From Archangium violaceum (GTDB lineage Bacteria > Myxococcota > Myxococcia > Myxococcales > Myxococcaceae): a stretch of DNA of 64,000 nucleotides. The notes below the pieces were generated by a model. It worked only from the letters and a program-made list of their open reading frames with translations. It was not told where the DNA came from and did not search any database. Position 1 is the stretch's first letter. Each line of letters opens with the position of its first letter. The position numbers and the translations under genes are program-made. The stretch lies in the NCBI RefSeq assembly GCF_016859125.1, contig NZ_CP069338.1, positions 4,899,501 through 4,963,500 of the forward strand. Direction: 5' to 3'. This document shows, in pieces, positions 23,999-64,000 of this stretch.

Positions 23999-24459
23999 AC
24001 AGAAACTCGACAACACAGCGTCGTCAGCAGCACGGCCGGCGGACAGACGGCAAGAATAACCGCCCCGCGCTCAGGCGACGACGCCTGTCGAGAGCGGCCA
24101 ACCTCGCCCCGGCTGGATTGAACCTGCGTGCGACGCCTGCCTCCCGAACCGTGGGTCGTCGGGCTCGTTGACACGCACGCGAATGCGCATTCGCGAATGC
24201 GCATTGCAAAGACTGAACGAGGCCACCGATGAACTCAGCCGAACGCCAACTCGAAGAGTCGCTCATCTCCAGGCTCGTGGGCCTCAAGTACGAGTACCGC
24301 GAAGATATTCGCGACCGCGATGCCCTCGAACGCAACTTCCGCCAGAAGTTCGAGAAGCTCAACCATGTCAACCTCACCGACGGCGAGTTCAAGCGACTCC
24401 TCGATGAGCTCGTCACCCCGGACGTGTACGAAGCTGCACGCGCCCTGCGAAACCGTGAG

Positions 24460-26199
24460 CCCACCATATTCGCGACGACTGGCTCAAGACATGCATGAAG
24501 GCTGAGGTCGAGCGCGTTGGGTTGAGTTATCGGGCACAAGGCAGAGGAAGCCCGCCCCGGGGCAGCGGGTAGCAAGCAGGAGGAGATGGAGAGGGGAGTG
24601 GGGAGAGTGCGACACGTGAGCTGCAATTGACTCCAGGCAGCTACGTGATGTGCGCTGTGCTCAGCGAGCCCAGCTTCGTCCACAGCTTCTGCCAGAGGCT
24701 GGCCGACTCCCGGCCAATGACCAGCACCACTCTTCTGGCGTGTAACAGCACCCGCGCGGCTACTTTGAGCACCCGCTCGCGCACACGGAGCAGCCCCCAG
24801 CCCTCGCCCGTGGCCTGCTCCATCAGCACGCGCGCGGCGTGCACCAGGTTGTAGGCCAGGGCATTGAGCAACAGGCGTACCTCGTTGTTGGCGAAGGCGT
24901 CGATGGACACCGAGCGCTGGACGGGCGGCTGCCCCCGGTACTTGGACTTGGGCCGTCTGGCCGAGGAGAGCGCCGGGGCCAGCACGTCCATGAGCTCTCC
25001 GAAGTGGCCCTCCGCCGTGCCGCGTTGGCGGTAGTGCTCCAGCAGCGCCTGTGCCGGCATCTGCTCCTTGCTCCAGCTCGTCACCAGCCAGAAGGCGTGC
25101 GGGAAGAGCTCGTCCTTCCTCTCCAGCACTACCAACACCACGCGCCGCGCACGGCTCCAGCCCTGCGCCTGGTACTCCCATTCGTACAGGTGGGTGCCCG
25201 GCTCCCCTGCGGCACTCCCGAATTCATGAAGCGCGGCAGCGCCGCCTCCCGCTGCAACACGCTGGTGTTGCGCACGCGCGCCACGTAGGGCGTGCCTCGC
25301 TCCTCCAGCTTCGCCAGCAGCTTCTCCTCGGGAAAGCCCGCGTCGAAGCGCACCGCCGCCACCTCACACACCTCCTTCTCCACTCGCCCCAGCAACTCGT
25401 CGATGAATTCCAGCGCTCCATTGGCGCTGTGCACGTTTCCCTCGCGCAACCTCACGTCCAGCAGGTCTCCCGTCTCGGCGAGACTGGCGACAATCGGGTG
25501 GTACATGCGTACTCCGTAGTGCCCGTTGTACGCGCTGCCCTCCTGGTGCCCATGCACCTCCACCGGCAACCCGTCCACGTCCACCGTCACCTGCTTGAGC
25601 TTCTGGCCCTTGGGCTGCTGCGCCCTCAGCCTCCGCCCCGTCTGCCACACCAGCGCCTCGTGCAGCACCTTCCGGTTTTCCTCTCGCGCCAACATGGCCG
25701 TCAGCCGCGACAAGGTGGGCTGTGAGGCCAACCCCTCCGCTCCCCCCTCTTTCCCCCTCAGCGGCACGCTGCTCTTGCTGTCCGACACCGCCAACCTCAA
25801 CGCCGCGTCCCTCCTGAGCGCGTCCGCGTCGTCGTGGTCTCTCCACCCTTGCCCCAACAGCAGAAGGTCCGTGCGCACCAACTCCCTCAGCGAGTGGGTT
25901 ATCCGCTTCTCGTCTCGCGTGTCCGTCAACATCTCCCCCAGCCAGCGCGTCAGCCCCAACCGCTCGTCCACCTCCCTCAGCAGCACCGCACCTGCCTCCG
26001 ACGTCAACCGCTCCGCCCTCGCCTCCAGCTTCACGGAGCCGTTGAACTCCAGCCCGAAGTCGTTGAGGATTTCACCCATGACGCGCCTCCTGCCTTGTGG
26101 TGGTGGATGTCTGAACAACACCCCTCTACCACTCGGGAGGTCAGGCGCGTCACCCTCCTTTTCCGGTCATCCTCCTGCACCTCTCGTGAATAAGGCGGG
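24460..26199 (-). mobile_element. IS1380-family insertion, copy 1 (frameshifted)
   Basis: A 1740-bp element flanked by GTGAG at 24455-24459 and 26200-26204. Terminal inverted repeats match 13 of 16: CCCACCATATTCGCGA on the left and CCCGCCTTATTCACGA read inward from the right. It is nearly identical to the copy at 60776-62516 but one base shorter. The insertion interrupts hsdR. Confidence 0.93.
24641..26079 (-). pseudogene. IS1380 transposase, frameshifted copy
   Basis: Same protein as the intact transposase at 60896-62335. Near 25201-25211 a C run is one base short and an adjacent base differs, so the frame shifts after MNSGVP and the first part stops at 25129. The C-terminal part resumes in another frame to the stop at 24641. 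Loss of the C-terminal half of the catalytic domain should abolish activity. A few other substitutions (Ala to Ser, Gln to His near the end) separate the copies, so the duplication is recent. Confidence 0.9.
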
Positions 26200-28999
26200 G
26201 TGAGGCGTTCGTCCGCGACGACGGCACCCCGCTCAACTACACCCTCGTCAACATCAAGGACTGGTGCAAGAACACCTTCGAAGTCGTCAACCAGCTCCGC
26301 ATCAACACCGACAACAGCCACCACCGCTACGACGTCATCCTCCTTATCAACGGAGTCCCCGTCGTCCAGATTGAGCTGAAAACGCTCGGCATCAGCCCGC
26401 GGCGGGCGATGGAGCAGATCGTCGACTACAAGAACGACCCGGGCAACGGGTACACGACGACGTTGCTGTGCTTCGTCCAGCTCTTCATCGTGAGCAACCG
26501 GACGGACACTTGGTACTTCGCCAACAACAACACACGGCATTTCGCCTTCGACGCTGACGAGCGCTTCCTCCCCGTCTACCAGTTCGCCGCCGAGGACAAC
26601 ACGAAGATCACGCACCTCGACGACTTCGCGGATCGGTTCCTGGCCAAGTGCACGCTCGGTCAGATGATCAGCAGGTACATGGTCCTCATCGCCAGCGAGC
26701 AGAAGCTGATGATGATGCGCCCGTACCAGATCTACGCCGTCAAGGCCATCGTCGACTGCATCGAGCAGAACTGCGGCAACGGCTACATCTGGCACACGAC
26801 CGGCTCCGGCAAGACGCTGACCTCCTTCAAGGCATCGACGCTCCTCAAGACGAACGAGAGCATTCACAAATGCCTTTTCGTCGTTGACCGCAAGGACCTC
26901 GATCGCCAAACCCGCGAGGAGTTCAATCGCTTCCAGCAGGGCTGCGTCGAAGAAAACACCAACACCGCGACGCTCGTCGATCGCCTGCTGTCTGACGACT
27001 ACGCCGACAAGGTCATCGTCACCACGATTCAGAAGCTTGGGCTCGCCCTCGACGAGAATAGCAAGCACAACAAGCAGAACGTCGCCCAAGGACGCGTCAC
27101 CTACAAGCAGCGCCTCGAATCTCTCCGCGACAAGCGGATGGTCTTCATCTTCGATGAGTGCCATCGTTCGCAGTTCGGCGAGAACCACAAGGCCATCAAG
27201 GAGTTCTTCCCCAACTCCCAGCTTTTCGGGTTCACCGGCACCCCGATCTTCGAGGACAACGCGACCGTCAAGCAGATCGAGGGCGACGTCGCTACCCTGC
27301 GCACGACGACGGACCTCTTCCAGAAGCAACTCCACGCCTACACCATCACCCACGCCATCGAGGACCGGAACGTCCTCCGCTTTCACGTCGACTACTACAG
27401 ACCGAAGAACGCGCCGGCTCTGAAGCCCGGCCAATCCCTCGCCAAACAAGCCGTCGCTCAGGCCATCCTCGACAAGCACGATGCTGCGACTGGACGCCGC
27501 CGTTTCAACGCTCTGCTGGCGACGGCCTCGATCAACGACGCCATTGAGTACTACGAGGTCTTCAAGAGGCTCCAGGCCGACAGAAGGTCAGCAGACCCCG
27601 ACTTCGTGCCTCTCAAGATCGCCGCGGTGTTCTCCCCGCCGGCAGAGGGCAACAAGGACGTCCAGCAGATCCAAGAGGACCTCCCTCAGGAGAAGGAGGA
27701 CAACCGCCACGACCCTGAGGGCAAGAAGGGCGCGCTCAAGGTGATCATCTCCGACTACAACCAGCAGTACGGCACCAATCACGACATCAACAACTTCGAC
27801 CTTTACTATCAGGACGTTCAGCAGCGCATCAAGGACCAGCAGTTCCCCAACCGCGACCTGCCGCGCCGGGGCGAGGAGAAGATCGACCTCACGATCGTCG
27901 TCGACATGCTGCTCACGGGGTTCGACGCGAAGTACCTCAACACGCTTTACGTCGACAAGAACCTCAAGCACCACGGCCTGATCCAGGCCTTCTCCCGCAC
28001 GAACCGCGTCCTCAACGCCACGAAGCCCTACGGCCACATCCTCGACTTCCGCCAGCAGCAGGACAGCGTCGACACCGCGATCGCGCTCTTCTCCGGTGCG
28101 CAGGCTGATCGGGCCCGCGAGATCTGGTTGGTCGACAAGGCTCCCGTCGTCATCGACAACTTCAAGCAGGCCGTCGCCGACCTTGGCGAGTTCATGACGT
28201 CGCAGGGCCTCGAAGCCAAGCCCGATCAGGTGAACAACCTCATGGGCGACGACGCCCGCGCCCAGTTCATCAAGCGGTTCAAGGAGGTCCAGCGCCTCCA
28301 GACGCAGCTTGACCAGTACACCAACCTTACTGACGAGCAGCGAGCGCAGATTGAACAGGCCCTGCCCAAGGACGAGCTCCGCGCCTTCCGCGGCGTGTAC
28401 CTCGAAACCGCGCAACGCCTGAAGGAGCAGCAGGGGGCCTCTGGAAAGGAGGGCCAGCCTGCGAGCGCCGAGGTCGACCAGCTCGACTTCGAGTTCGTCC
28501 TCTTCGCCTCCGCCGTCATCGACTACGACTACATCATGAAGCTGATCGCCAAGTACTCGGGGCAGGACCCGAAGAAGCTCACGATCAGCCGCGAGCAGCT
28601 CATTGGGCTCATCCAGTCCGACGCCAAGTTCATGGACGAGCGGGACGATATCACCGAGTACGTCCGCTCGCTCAAGGAGGGCGAGGGCCTCGACGAAGCC
28701 GCCATCCGTGCCGGTTACGAGCAGTTCAAGGCCGAGAAGCAGGCCCAGCAGATCGCTCATCTCGCCCATGCCCATCGACTGACGACCGAGTCGCTCTCGG
28801 CCTTCGTTGACACCATCCTCCAGCGCATGATCTTCGATGGCGAGCAGCTCACCGACCTGATGGAGCCGCTCGGTCTCGGCTGGCGCGAACGCCGCGAGCG
28901 CGAACTCGCGCTCATGGCCGACCTCGTCCCCCTCCTGAAAAAGCGGGCCCATGGCCGGGAAATCTCGGGCCTCAATGCATACGAGCATGGGGGGGCACG

Positions 29000-59950: not shown

Positions 59951-60775
59951 ACCGTGTAGGGCAGGTCGGGACCCATGGACTTCCGGGGGCCCAAAAGCAC
60001 CGCCGTCCCGAAAGGACTCATGGGGATTCCCCGGGGTTCCACGCCTGGTCCTGATGGCATCTGCTCATCCTGATGGGAGCTGTTCAATATCTTCTCAGAT
60101 TTCATTCAGTCGTCGACGAGAGCTTTGGTGTCAGTGTCCGAGTGCTCTCCAGGTGGAGTGATCCACCGGCTCTGCGAGTGCCCAACGGTCCTCGTGCTCC
60201 AGCCATCGTGCGACGCCAGCGTACCTCCAAGGCTTCTCCGGTGCGGTCCGGGTCAGCACGAATGCGGTTTCCGCCGGGCGGCGATCTTCGATGCGTAGGT
60301 TCAGGCGATCGGGTTCGGTAAGGGTTCCCTTTTCGGTCACACAGAGAAAGAGATGGCCATTGATGCGCCCGGTTTTCGGCGGAGAGGGCAGCTCGAAGGC
60401 ACGAGCGGTCTCCTCATCCGTCATCCGTTCGCCCGTGGCGGGTCCGAGTTTCGCGGGTGGAATCACTTCGACGAGAAGGGCAACGGGGACCACATCCTCC
60501 GTCGCCTCGAAGGACGGCCGCGCCGGATTGTCGGAGCGCAGCATCCACCGGTCGCCTTCTCGGATGATTCGCTTGACCTGGTACCCATAGCCCGCCGCAT
60601 CCGGCACTTGCACGAGTGCCACCTTGCCCTCGACCGCGCCGATACCCGCGGCTCGGGCGTAGCGCATCACGAGCCAATCACCGTCTCGAATCGGTCGCTC
60701 GCCTCCGTCCATGGAATCGCCGAACGCGCGTACCGCGAACAGCCCTTCGCCAGTCGTTTGGACTGGCAGGCTCAC

Positions 60776-62516
60776 CCCGCCTTATTCACGAGAGGTGCAG
60801 GAGGATGACCGGAAAAGGAGGGTGACGCGCCTGACCTCCCGAGTGGTAGAGGGGTGTTGTTCAGACATCCACCACCACAAGGCAGGAGGCGCGTCATGGG
60901 TGAAATCCTCAACGACTTCGGGCTGGAGTTCAACGGCTCCGTGAAGCTGGAGGCGAGGGCGGAGCGGTTGACGTCGGAGGCAGGTGCGGTGCTGCTGAGG
61001 GAGGTGGACGAGCGGTTGGGGCTGACGCGCTGGCTGGGGGAGATGTTGACGGACACGCGAGACGAGAAGCGGATAACCCACTCGCTGAGGGAGTTGGTGC
61101 GCACGGACCTTCTGCTGTTGGGGCAAGGGTGGAGAGACCACGACGACGCGGACGCGCTCAGGAGGGACGCGGCGTTGAGGTTGGCGGTGTCGGACAGCAA
61201 GAGCAGCGTGCCGCTGAGGGGGAAAGAGGGGGGAGCGGAGGGGTTGGCCTCACAGCCCACCTTGTCGCGGCTGACGGCCATGTTGGCGCGAGAGGAAAAC
61301 CGGAAGGTGCTGCACGAGGCGCTGGTGTGGCAGACGGGGCGGAGGCTGAGGGCGCAGCAGCCCAAGGGCCAGAAGCTCAAGCAGGTGACGGTGGACGTGG
61401 ACGGGTTGCCGGTGGAGGTGCATGGGCACCAGGAGGGCAGCGCGTACAACGGGCACTACGGAGTACGCATGTACCACCCGATTGTCGCCAGTCTCGCCGA
61501 GACGGGAGACCTGCTGGACGTGAGGTTGCGCGAGGGAAACGTGCACAGCGCCAATGGAGCGCTGGAATTCATCGACGAGTTGCTGGGGCGAGTGGAGAAG
61601 GAGGTGTGTGAGGTGGCGGCGGTGCGCTTCGACGCGGGCTTTCCCGAGGAGAAGCTGCTGGCGAAGCTGGAGGAGCGAGGCACGCCCTACGTGGCGCGCG
61701 TGCGCAACACCAGCGTGTTGCAGCGGGAGGCGGCGCTGCCGCGCTTCATGAATTCGGGAGTGCCGCTGGGGGAGCCGGGCACCCACCTGTACGAATGGGA
61801 GTACCAGGCGCAGGGCTGGAGCCGTGCGCGGCGCGTGGTGTTGGTAGTGCTGGAGAGGAAGGACGAGCTCTTCCCGCACGCCTTCTGGCTGGTGACGAGC
61901 TGGAGCAAGGAGCAGATGCCGGCACAGGCGCTGCTGGAGCACTACCGCCAACGCGGCACGGCGGAGGGCCACTTCGGAGAGCTCATGGACGTGCTGGCCC
62001 CGGCGCTCTCCTCGGCCAGACGGCCCAAGTCCAAGTACCGGGGGCAGCCGCCCGTCCAGCGCGCGGTGTCCATCGACGCCTTCGCCAACAACGAGGTACG
62101 CCTGTTGCTCAATGCCCTGGCCTACAACCTGGTGCACGCCGCGCGCGTGCTGATGGAGCAGGCCACGGGCGAGGGCTGGGGGCTGCTCCGTGTGCGCGAG
62201 CGGGTGCTCAAAGTAGCCGCGCGGGTGCTGTTACACGCCAGAAGAGTGGTGCTGGTCATTGGCCGGGAGTCGGCCAGCCTCTGGCAGAAGCTGTGGACGA
62301 AGCTGGGCTCGCTGAGCACAGCGCAAATCACGTAGCTGCCTGGAGTCAATTGCAGCTCACGTGTCGCACTCTCCCCACTCCCCTCTCCATCTCCTCCTGC
62401 TTGCTACCCGCTGCCCCGGGGCGGGCTTCCTCTGCCTTGTGCCCGATAACTCAACCCAACGCGCTCGACCTCAGCCTTCATGCATGTCTTGAGCCAGTCG
62501 TCGCGAATATGGTGGG
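60776..62516 (+). mobile_element. IS1380-family insertion, copy 2 (intact)
   Basis: A 1741-bp element with inverted ends CCCGCCTTATTCACGA (left) and CCCACCATATTCGCGA (read inward from the right), flanked by CTCAC at 60771-60775 and 62517-62521. It is the source-like intact relative of the copy in hsdR, and lies in the helicase-S24 gene. Confidence 0.93.
60896..62335 (+). CDS. IS1380-family transposase, intact
   Basis: A 479-residue DDE transposase (ATG 60896 after AGGAGG). N-terminal DNA-binding part: MGEILNDFGLEFNGSVKLEA. Catalytic core: QVTVDVDGLPVEVHGHQEG (first Asp), EVAAVRFDAGFPEEKLLAKL (second Asp region), and YRQRGTAEGHFGELMD (Glu in the YREREN-like motif) before NNEVRLLLNALAYNLVHAAR. 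The family moves by cut-and-paste and makes 4-5 bp target duplications. Expression is likely since the frame is complete. Confidence 0.93.
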   Translation: MGEILNDFGLEFNGSVKLEARAERLTSEAGAVLLREVDERLGLTRWLGEMLTDTRDEKRITHSLRELVRTDLLLLGQGWRDHDDADALRRDAALRLAVSDSKSSVPLRGKEGGAEGLASQPTLSRLTAMLAREENRKVLHEALVWQTGRRLRAQQPKGQKLKQVTVDVDGLPVEVHGHQEGSAYNGHYGVRMYHPIVASLAETGDLLDVRLREGNVHSANGALEFIDELLGRVEKEVCEVAAVRFDAGFPEEKLLAKLEERGTPYVARVRNTSVLQREAALPRFMNSGVPLGEPGTHLYEWEYQAQGWSRARRVVLVVLERKDELFPHAFWLVTSWSKEQMPAQALLEHYRQRGTAEGHFGELMDVLAPALSSARRPKSKYRGQPPVQRAVSIDAFANNEVRLLLNALAYNLVHAARVLMEQATGEGWGLLRVRERVLKVAARVLLHARRVVLVIGRESASLWQKLWTKLGSLSTAQIT

Positions 62517-64000
62517 CTCACGCGCTCTGCCTCTGGAGCGCTCTCTAGCGCCACGGAGAGGGTGGCTGCTCCCGCCGCGGCACGGATGCTTGGGAATGCC
62601 ACGAGCGTTCCCCTCTGAGAGAGGGGTATCACCTCCGCTTCGACGGGGGCCACGCTCCAACCATCAAGTCCGGGAGTGAAGCGGACGTGGAACGCCGTGC
62701 CCGGCAGACCCACCGTGGGACCGAACCAACGCCGCAGCAGGTCCGGCAATGTGTTGCGATCCGTTCCCACCGGCCGTGCCACATTGCAGAACTCCTTGGC
62801 CATCCGGAATCGCCAGGGACTGCCATCCGGCAGCCTCACGTCCGTCTCGCCCTCTGGCAGGTCCGTTCGTTTCGTGCGTGATGGCAGCTTGATGATGGGG
62901 TCTCGCGCGTTTCGAATGATCTTGGCTTCGAAGGCAGACCCGAGCGTCTCCATGCGCTGCCGGGCGCGGTACTGCGCGAGACGGTAGTCCACCAGCTCGC
63001 GTGTCAGGTTCAGGAATGCTTCCCCCTCACTCTCGGAGATGGGGAGACGTGGAACGAACCGATTTGCCTCCACCCGGAACCACGGGCCTCCAACCCACGC
63101 CTGGACCGGATTGTCCTTCCAGTATTTGAGGAAGGTTTCCGGCTTCGGGTTGCGCCAGTCCTCTCCCAGCGCCTTGACTCCTTCGATGTCCCTCAGCAGC
63201 TCCGGCGAACGCCGCAGGATGGCCAGGCTGCGTTCGGCCAGTTGCGGAAGCGGCATGCCCACTGCCAGCGCTCCGGCTTCGAGCAGCGCCTCCAGCGACA
63301 CCATCTTGAAGCTCTTGGTCATCTGCGTGGTTTCGAGCTCATCGAACCACTTCGCTCCGGCTTCCAGGGCGCGGGTCTCCTCCGGAGTCAGGTCTCCCTC
63401 GCTCCGCACGAAGGGCAGCCATCCCCCATGTTCGTCACGCAACGTGGCAGGTCGATACCCCATCCGGTACAGCTCTCCCGCGGTGGGCCTCCTCCCCCAG
63501 GTCTCCCTCAGTTCGCGGTACACCCGCTCCACTTCACCGCGCCCGCTCGGCAATAGCTTCGCCAGCAGTTCCTTGGCCTCCAATTCCACCTGAACCGAGC
63601 AGCCCGGAGGTAGTTCGGGAGCCTTTCCATCCACGAGGAAGTCGCGCAGCGATAGCCGTTCCGTTGCATTCGCCAGTACCAGCAGTGCGCGCACCCGTTC
63701 CAGGAACACCCGGTGGTTGCCGACGAAATCGATGACCGTGACCGCTGGTTTGCCCTCGACCTTGCGGAGCCCGCGTCCGAGTTGCTGCAGGAACACCACG
63801 GGCGATTCCGTGGGCCGCATCATCACCACCCGATCCACGCTCGGCACGTCCACGCCCTCGTTGAAGAGGTCTACCGAGCAGACCGCGTCCAGCTCGCCAC
63901 CCGCCAGCTTCCGAAGCGCCTCCGCCCGGTCATCCGAGCCTTGCGCCGAGTGCACGGCCATGACCCGAATGCCCCTGCCCTTCAGCCAATCCTTGACGTA

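Follow-up and report, generated by a model that had tools for sequence, protein, structure and literature searches.

Restriction nucleases must be restrained from killing their host, and the locus studied here raises the question of whether one family of such enzymes carries a restraint within its own chain. The locus lies at the end of a 64,000-nucleotide stretch of the Archangium violaceum genome (contig NZ_CP069338.1, positions 4,899,501 to 4,963,500), which we refer to as "the window"; the gene in question, located on the minus strand and running out of the window, had been described in an initial annotation as a helicase fused to a self-cleaving S24 peptidase. The fusion is confirmed, and the description is to be amended: the helicase is part of a nuclease-motor that resembles the restriction enzyme SauUSI, the S24 domain stands between this motor and DNA-reading domains, and the window copy is broken. 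We read the gene as a single-chain, ATP-driven restriction nuclease, interrupted by an insertion, with the order HIT-PLD-superfamily 2 (SF2) motor-coupler-B3-S24-SRA-like, that limits itself through its S24 domain; we consider the arguments for and against this reading as a whole to be evenly balanced.

The two halves of the gene are separated by an insertion sequence (IS) of the IS1380 family, which carries both the transposase and the short target-site duplication of that family. As the IS and one copy of the CTCAC duplication together measure 1746 bp, i.e. 582 codons, a multiple of three, both halves are in one frame; the split gene had been recognised correctly. The open reading frame (ORF) of the helicase half encodes 1094 amino acids, the final dozen or so of which are contributed by the insertion. 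In the genome, a single contig of 12.68 Mb, the search lists the same element at 24 places, three of them partial; most of the copies are more than 97% identical, and the further copies that have been inspected are each flanked by a 5-bp repeat of their own. Because the copies are nearly identical and both halves of the gene are still open, the insertion is probably recent; the window copy of the enzyme is probably dead.

The gene reaches genome position 4965255 (L009:5471-8755), 1.75 kb outside the window, and the adjoining DNA encodes a HIT domain and a PLD nuclease domain, in agreement with the earlier guess that a nuclease might be located at the N-terminus. The SF2 motor follows the PLD domain directly and is followed by a helical coupler domain, the arrangement by which SauUSI-like enzymes are recognised. 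The best match in PADLOC is the type IV restriction model mREase_IV (4.9e-95), spanning the PLD domain and the motor, and among solved structures SauUSI (7clg, 2e-73) is the best match to the whole chain. PbeA, a Dnd-linked HKD nuclease-SF2 helicase (PMC10853773), has the HKD/PLD nuclease and the SF2 helicase in common with the gene (1e-34), but it has no S24 domain; membership in the PbeA family has been rejected, with mREase_IV matching far better in PADLOC and the partners PbeBCD not noticed beside the gene.

The S24 domain has the catalytic Ser (GDSM) and Lys (VKRI) that had been assigned to it, and it is preceded by a motif that had been overlooked, RAAAG, the predicted LexA-type self-cleavage site, located 37 residues ahead of the Ser once the insertion is taken out of the window gene. 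The domain thus combines the two features of S24 peptidases, an Ala-Gly or Cys-Gly site around 35 residues before the Ser, and the Ser/Lys dyad. Our comparison of folds is based on a second-look structural alignment of a model of residues 691-1409 of the close orthologue L079 (mean pLDDT, the predicted local distance difference test score, 84.5), in which model residues 353-490 match the RecA-bound lambda repressor (8gmu, Z 14.1) and LexA (Z 14.0), with the cleavage region included in both cases. The protein is not itself a LexA: its score against NCBIfam TIGR00498 is 18.5, compared with an equivalog cut-off of 110.95. From its membership in the S24 family, we expect with good confidence that the domain cleaves itself, and, somewhat less firmly, that RecA stimulates the cleavage. 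Alternatively, the S24 domain might cleave once upon folding, yielding a two-chain enzyme that needs no signal; the conservation of the catalytic residues is compatible with such a maturation, and the signal is itself a deduction of ours, but the fold matches are the RecA-responsive LexA, lambda CI and UmuD, and the spontaneous cleavage of LexA is slow at neutral pH. We regard this alternative as very unlikely.

Intact orthologues have been found in which the helicase and the S24 domain are encoded in one frame and not by separate genes, and in which the catalytic Ser and Lys are both conserved, so that neither of the two findings which the initial annotation had named as refuting it has been made. 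Of 145 genomes of the order, 32 have given matches to the S24 half, a query that covers only sequence beyond the predicted cleavage site and is therefore blind to it; at 24 loci the helicase and the S24 domain share one uninterrupted frame. A scan of genome contigs, where the pattern LRAAAG was one of two seeds, has given 38 loci. Many of them encode HIT-PLD-SF2-MID-S24-C1(-C2-C3) as a single frame, and they stem from Myxococcota as well as from metagenome assemblies of Planctomycetota and Holophagales (Acidobacteriota); the nearest orthologues with named records belong to Myxococcus, Pyxidicoccus and other Myxococcaceae, with intact copies for instance in Myxococcus vastator AM301 (L085) and Pyxidicoccus caerfyrddinensis (L081). 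With intact single-frame orthologues in many genomes, a chance match or a pair of separate genes is excluded. All 40 full-length single-frame orthologues, 23 of which come from the search that is blind to the cleavage site, have the PLD HxK and GSSN motifs, the Walker A motif, motif VI, the spacing from AAAG to GxSM and the Lys motif, and 38 of them have the HIT motif; the DExH pattern is missed in six, maybe through the strictness of the pattern alone. In alignment A1, whose rows come from the search that is blind to the cleavage site, A-A-A-G, the Ser and the Lys are all invariant, down to 43% identity. The domain order, the position of the cleavage motif and the conservation of all the active sites can be read directly in these genes.

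The same conservation bears on the idea that the S24 fold is a scaffold, retained for dimerisation or DNA reading, in which cleavage is irrelevant. A precedent for such a scaffold exists in L074 (genome G082; L074:8635-12009, minus), where a nucleoside phosphorylase (PNP_UDP_1) and a protein kinase are fused to B3, a dead S24 domain that has lost its Ser, its Lys and its Ala-Gly, an SRA-like domain and C2; with the cleavage site, the Ser and the Lys intact in 40 of 40 nuclease-motor orthologues, the idea is hardly credible for the enzymes discussed here.

The domains that surround the S24 domain point to DNA reading. The "extra C-terminal domain" of the initial annotation exists and is read here as a short SRA-like domain: residues 493-589 of the L079 model align with the SRA domains of ScoMcrA (Z 6.7) and UHRF2 (Z 5.8), in a range of 5.5-6.7, where structural Z values below 8 are weak when standing alone, while the coupler and the SRA-like part together align on SauUSI 7clg with Z 9.4. 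Compared with the SRA profile of DUF3427, the domain gives an E-value of 2e-4 and a probability of 46%, being shorter and below the detection of Pfam DUF3427; this comparison further supports the SRA assignment, as does L171, an intermediate protein in which a Pfam S24 domain (1135-1260) is directly followed by DUF3427 (1269-1408, 1.2e-17). The C3 domain of the longest orthologues, modelled separately, matches the N-terminal 5-methylcytosine-binding domain (NEco) of EcoKMcrA (6r64, Z 15.2, 137 residues, root-mean-square deviation 2.9); this model-based match strengthens the reading of a modification-dependent restriction enzyme, and it would place one more reader of modified bases on the far side of the cut. 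For C2, a domain of around 120 residues, a search that barely probed it has given no structural match. The window copy lacks the C2 and C3 domains of the longer orthologues, and no C2 remnant has been found below its stop codon.

Sister genes locate the S24 domain precisely. The order in L171 is HIT-PLD-SF2-B3-S24-DUF3427 (by Pfam, with B3 by profile), and L169, L170 and L172 have the same order without S24, i.e. HIT-PLD-SF2-B3-SRA(DUF3427), with HIT in an overlapping frame in L170; the S24 domain thus sits exactly between the motor-B3 part and the SRA reader. In the helicase tree, the AAAG-type enzymes form one group (92/99, not starred), to which neither the DUF3427 sisters nor L117 belong; the branch of L115 is very long, and its placement is unsure. 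These last two are other S24 nuclease-motors: L117, a Pseudoalteromonas plasmid protein (WP_282338348.1), is built as PLD-SF2-coupler-S24, lacks an SRA domain and has ACG at its cleavage site, and L115, a protein from a Neptunomonas metagenome-assembled genome (L115:1576-4665, plus), has SF2 and a C-terminal S24 domain, also with an ACG site, after a different N-terminus that, judged by eye, may be PD-(D/E)XK-like. Taken with L074, these architectures indicate that nuclease-motors of different kinds have acquired an S24 domain and that the reader module can be transferred to other effectors.

L117 and L115 also bear on the possibility that the S24 domain mainly docks the nuclease on RecA-coated DNA, with cleavage then unloading or freeing the motor. 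The S24 domain of L117 occupies the place of target recognition in a protein without SRA, that of L115 is C-terminal as well, and the binding of S24 proteins to RecA filaments is seen in solved complexes (8gmu, 8gms and 8trg, all among our structural matches); since most members already have B3 and SRA-like domains for DNA recognition, we consider such targeting unlikely.

From the position of the cut, we propose the following mechanism. The readers of the intact enzyme would find modified foreign DNA, the motor would translocate and PLD dimers would cut, as in SauUSI, whose class cleaves m5C/hm5C DNA in an ATP-dependent manner. Where filaments of RecA on single-stranded DNA build up, through DNA damage or through an attack of the enzyme on its own chromosome, the S24 domain would cut its own chain between Ala and Gly within LRAAAG, parting HIT-PLD-motor-coupler-B3 from S24-SRA(-C2-NEco) and disconnecting target recognition from the motor; the motor fragment, then ending in -LRAAA, might present a ClpXP degron, as in LexA. 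The result would be a restriction alleviation that is built into the enzyme, which would probably switch off during DNA damage. In broader terms, we slightly favour the view that the restriction enzymes of this family cut their own chain, with a RecA-responsive LexA-type peptidase between the motor-nuclease and the readers, through which damage resets or arms the enzyme post-translationally.

The direction of the switch is not fixed by the sequence: cleavage has about an even chance of turning the enzyme off, while turning it on is possible, with a lower probability. OFF is judged the likelier outcome because recognition would be uncoupled from the motor, because EcoKI offers a case of damage-linked shut-off, and because -LRAAA bears some likeness to the ClpXP degrons of LexA-like proteins. 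The ATPase of SauUSI depends for its activation on the reader, to which the coupler connects it (PMC7913695); the damage-linked proteolysis of the helicase-nuclease HsdR of EcoKI is established (PMC4231737, PMC11109961); and in LexA-like proteins, ClpXP degrons are located directly at the cleavage site, on the C-terminus that the cut creates (PMC5742171). If the enzyme were instead switched on, the S24-reader half would hold it inactive until phage-raised RecA filaments triggered the cleavage and released an active PLD-motor, as an abortive or last-line defence. The domain architecture is equally compatible with this course of events; in L117, the S24 domain occupies the position of the SauUSI target-recognition domain and could act as a lid, and the B3 domain, which would stay with the motor after the cut, could still bind DNA. 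The reader is, however, required for ATPase activation in SauUSI (PMC7913695), and in the window the IS leaves an open frame (62471-64000 and upstream) for a putative fragment close to the cleaved product, which the host tolerates; release of an active motor seems doubtful to us.

Several points weigh against a modification-dependent nuclease that is switched off by its own peptidase. To our knowledge, a phage-defence phenotype is known for no member of the family, and UmuD is a precedent for activation through cleavage. The cleavage of L117 cannot sever a modified-base reader, since its S24 domain comes directly after the coupler and there is no SRA domain; the idea of an Ala-Ala degron is not general, since a second class of S24 proteins (L115, L117, L171 and L173) ends in VAC/G or IAC/G, the slash marking the cut. 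The SRA-like domain is short (around 100 residues) and may have lost its base-flipping pocket. The conservation of AAAG among the loci of the genome-contig scan is biased by the LRAAAG seed and is not independent evidence. Lastly, no conserved operon partner or defence neighbour occurs across the loci, where merely synteny among close relatives has been found.

Each of the two components, the type IV restriction enzyme and the S24 peptidase, is known; their fusion, with a predicted self-cleavage site at the motor-reader joint, seems to be new. The family shares with SauUSI (7clg; PLD-SF2-coupler-SRA/DUF3427) the order of PLD, motor and coupler and, probably, an SRA-type domain at the C-terminus, but adds the N-terminal HIT, the inserted B3 and S24 domains and the optional C2 and NEco-like domains, and has a shorter SRA-like domain. 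With LexA, lambda CI and UmuD it has in common the S24 fold, an Ala-Gly or Cys-Gly pair as the presumed cleavage site, 32-40 residues ahead of the Ser, and the Lys as general base, but it has no helix-turn-helix repressor domain, and its peptidase would control a nuclease-motor instead of a promoter or a polymerase. In comparison with EcoKMcrA NEco (PDB 6r64), the matching C3 domain is fused to a PLD-motor enzyme and not to an HNH nuclease. The proposed logic of a damage-linked, proteolytic shut-off of a helicase-nuclease is also that of the alleviation of EcoKI through ClpXP acting on HsdR (PMC4231737), with the difference that the protease is external there, while here a self-cleaving domain lies within the enzyme. 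A fusion of S24 with a restriction enzyme is not described in PMC7159879, PMC10853773 or PMC12707154, and no description has been found in a search of 5.4 million open papers, which left subscription papers and most preprints outside its range. All control of restriction nucleases that we know of is external (ClpXP on HsdR) or exerted through assembly or transcription. If the proposal is true, a single protein would link the RecA signal directly to nuclease activity at the motor-reader joint, and a restriction endonuclease would join the repressors and polymerase subunits that undergo RecA-controlled autoproteolysis. The model is simple and testable: intact natural enzymes are available in Myxococcus, Sorangium, Nannocystis, Planctomycetota and others, with the S24-less sisters as natural controls.

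Table 1. Features of the split gene and its insertion element (positions in the window, or residues of the protein where stated).
Feature	Position	Strand	Basis or remark
HIT domain	residues 14-102		Pfam; outside window
PLDc_2 (PLD nuclease)	residues 169-297		Pfam; outside window
ResIII, first SF2 lobe	residues 338-491		Pfam; outside window
Helicase_C	residues 567-664		Pfam
Helicase half of gene	62471-64000	minus	remainder beyond window
C-terminal RecA-like lobe of SF2 motor	63614-64000	minus	Pfam Helicase_C
SF2 motif NEGVDVP	63862-63842	minus	
SF2 motif QQLGRGLR	63787-63764	minus	
Helical coupler domain as in SauUSI	62942-63613	minus	two-domain match of orthologue model with SauUSI 7clg, Z 9.4
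B3-type DNA-binding domain	62654-62941	minus	orthologue model residues 244-345 vs plant B3, Z 6.6-7.3; family profile
RAAAG motif, predicted LexA-type self-cleavage site (last Ala / Gly)	62570-62584	minus	
Target-site duplication CTCAC, copy 1	62517-62521		
IS1380-family insertion sequence, 1741 bp, splitting gene	60776-62516	plus	
IS1380 transposase ORF	60854-62335	plus	NF033539, 1.3e-89
Target-site duplication CTCAC, copy 2	60771-60775		
S24 half of gene	60131-60775	minus	
S24 (LexA/lambda CI-type) self-cleaving peptidase domain	60449-60775	minus	PF00717, 1.1e-7
Catalytic Ser codon in GDSM	60713-60715	minus	
Catalytic Lys codon in VKRI	60572-60574	minus	
Short SRA-like domain, protein end in window copy	60131-60448	minus	orthologue model residues 493-589

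The spread of the genes in the phylum is patchy, as for defence genes: among 195 genomes, 46 encode DUF3427 (SauUSI-type) enzymes and 33 encode the B3 domain that characterises the family studied here. Damaged copies occur in L061 (G080), where a large internal deletion joins HIT to the S24 tail, and in L057 (genome G015), which has frameshifts; the gene seems to be often lost, as expected of a costly defence gene. A viral origin has been rejected, as two scans of viral contigs and one search of phage records have returned no relative that carries the S24 part. No LexA-like or SOS box has been found upstream of the window gene, and 14 upstream regions have given only one generic CTG-N10-CAG, in a weak test for the myxobacterial box; with no such box upstream of the window gene, control is more likely to be post-translational.

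Among the minor observations, a second full copy of the IS1380 element lies in the window (24454-26204, minus) with its own 5-bp duplication, and many orthologues (L048-L067) have a TAGGGT-like element immediately ahead of their GTG start codon, as for leaderless transcripts. A relative of L115 with 39% identity and no S24 domain is encoded on a phage-labelled faecal contig (L118:4869-7430, plus; MT836124.1), with a subtilase-like ORF after it. In Staphylococcus aureus, a gene for a (deoxy)nucleoside triphosphate pyrophosphohydrolase (L178:1568-1960) is located upstream of a SauUSI-like gene, and in Hymenobacter (L121:3004-5251) a pyrophosphohydrolase gene and a HIT gene precede the SauUSI-like gene, HIT being fused to the enzyme in Myxococcota; nucleotide hydrolases seem to associate with the SauUSI-like nuclease-motor family.

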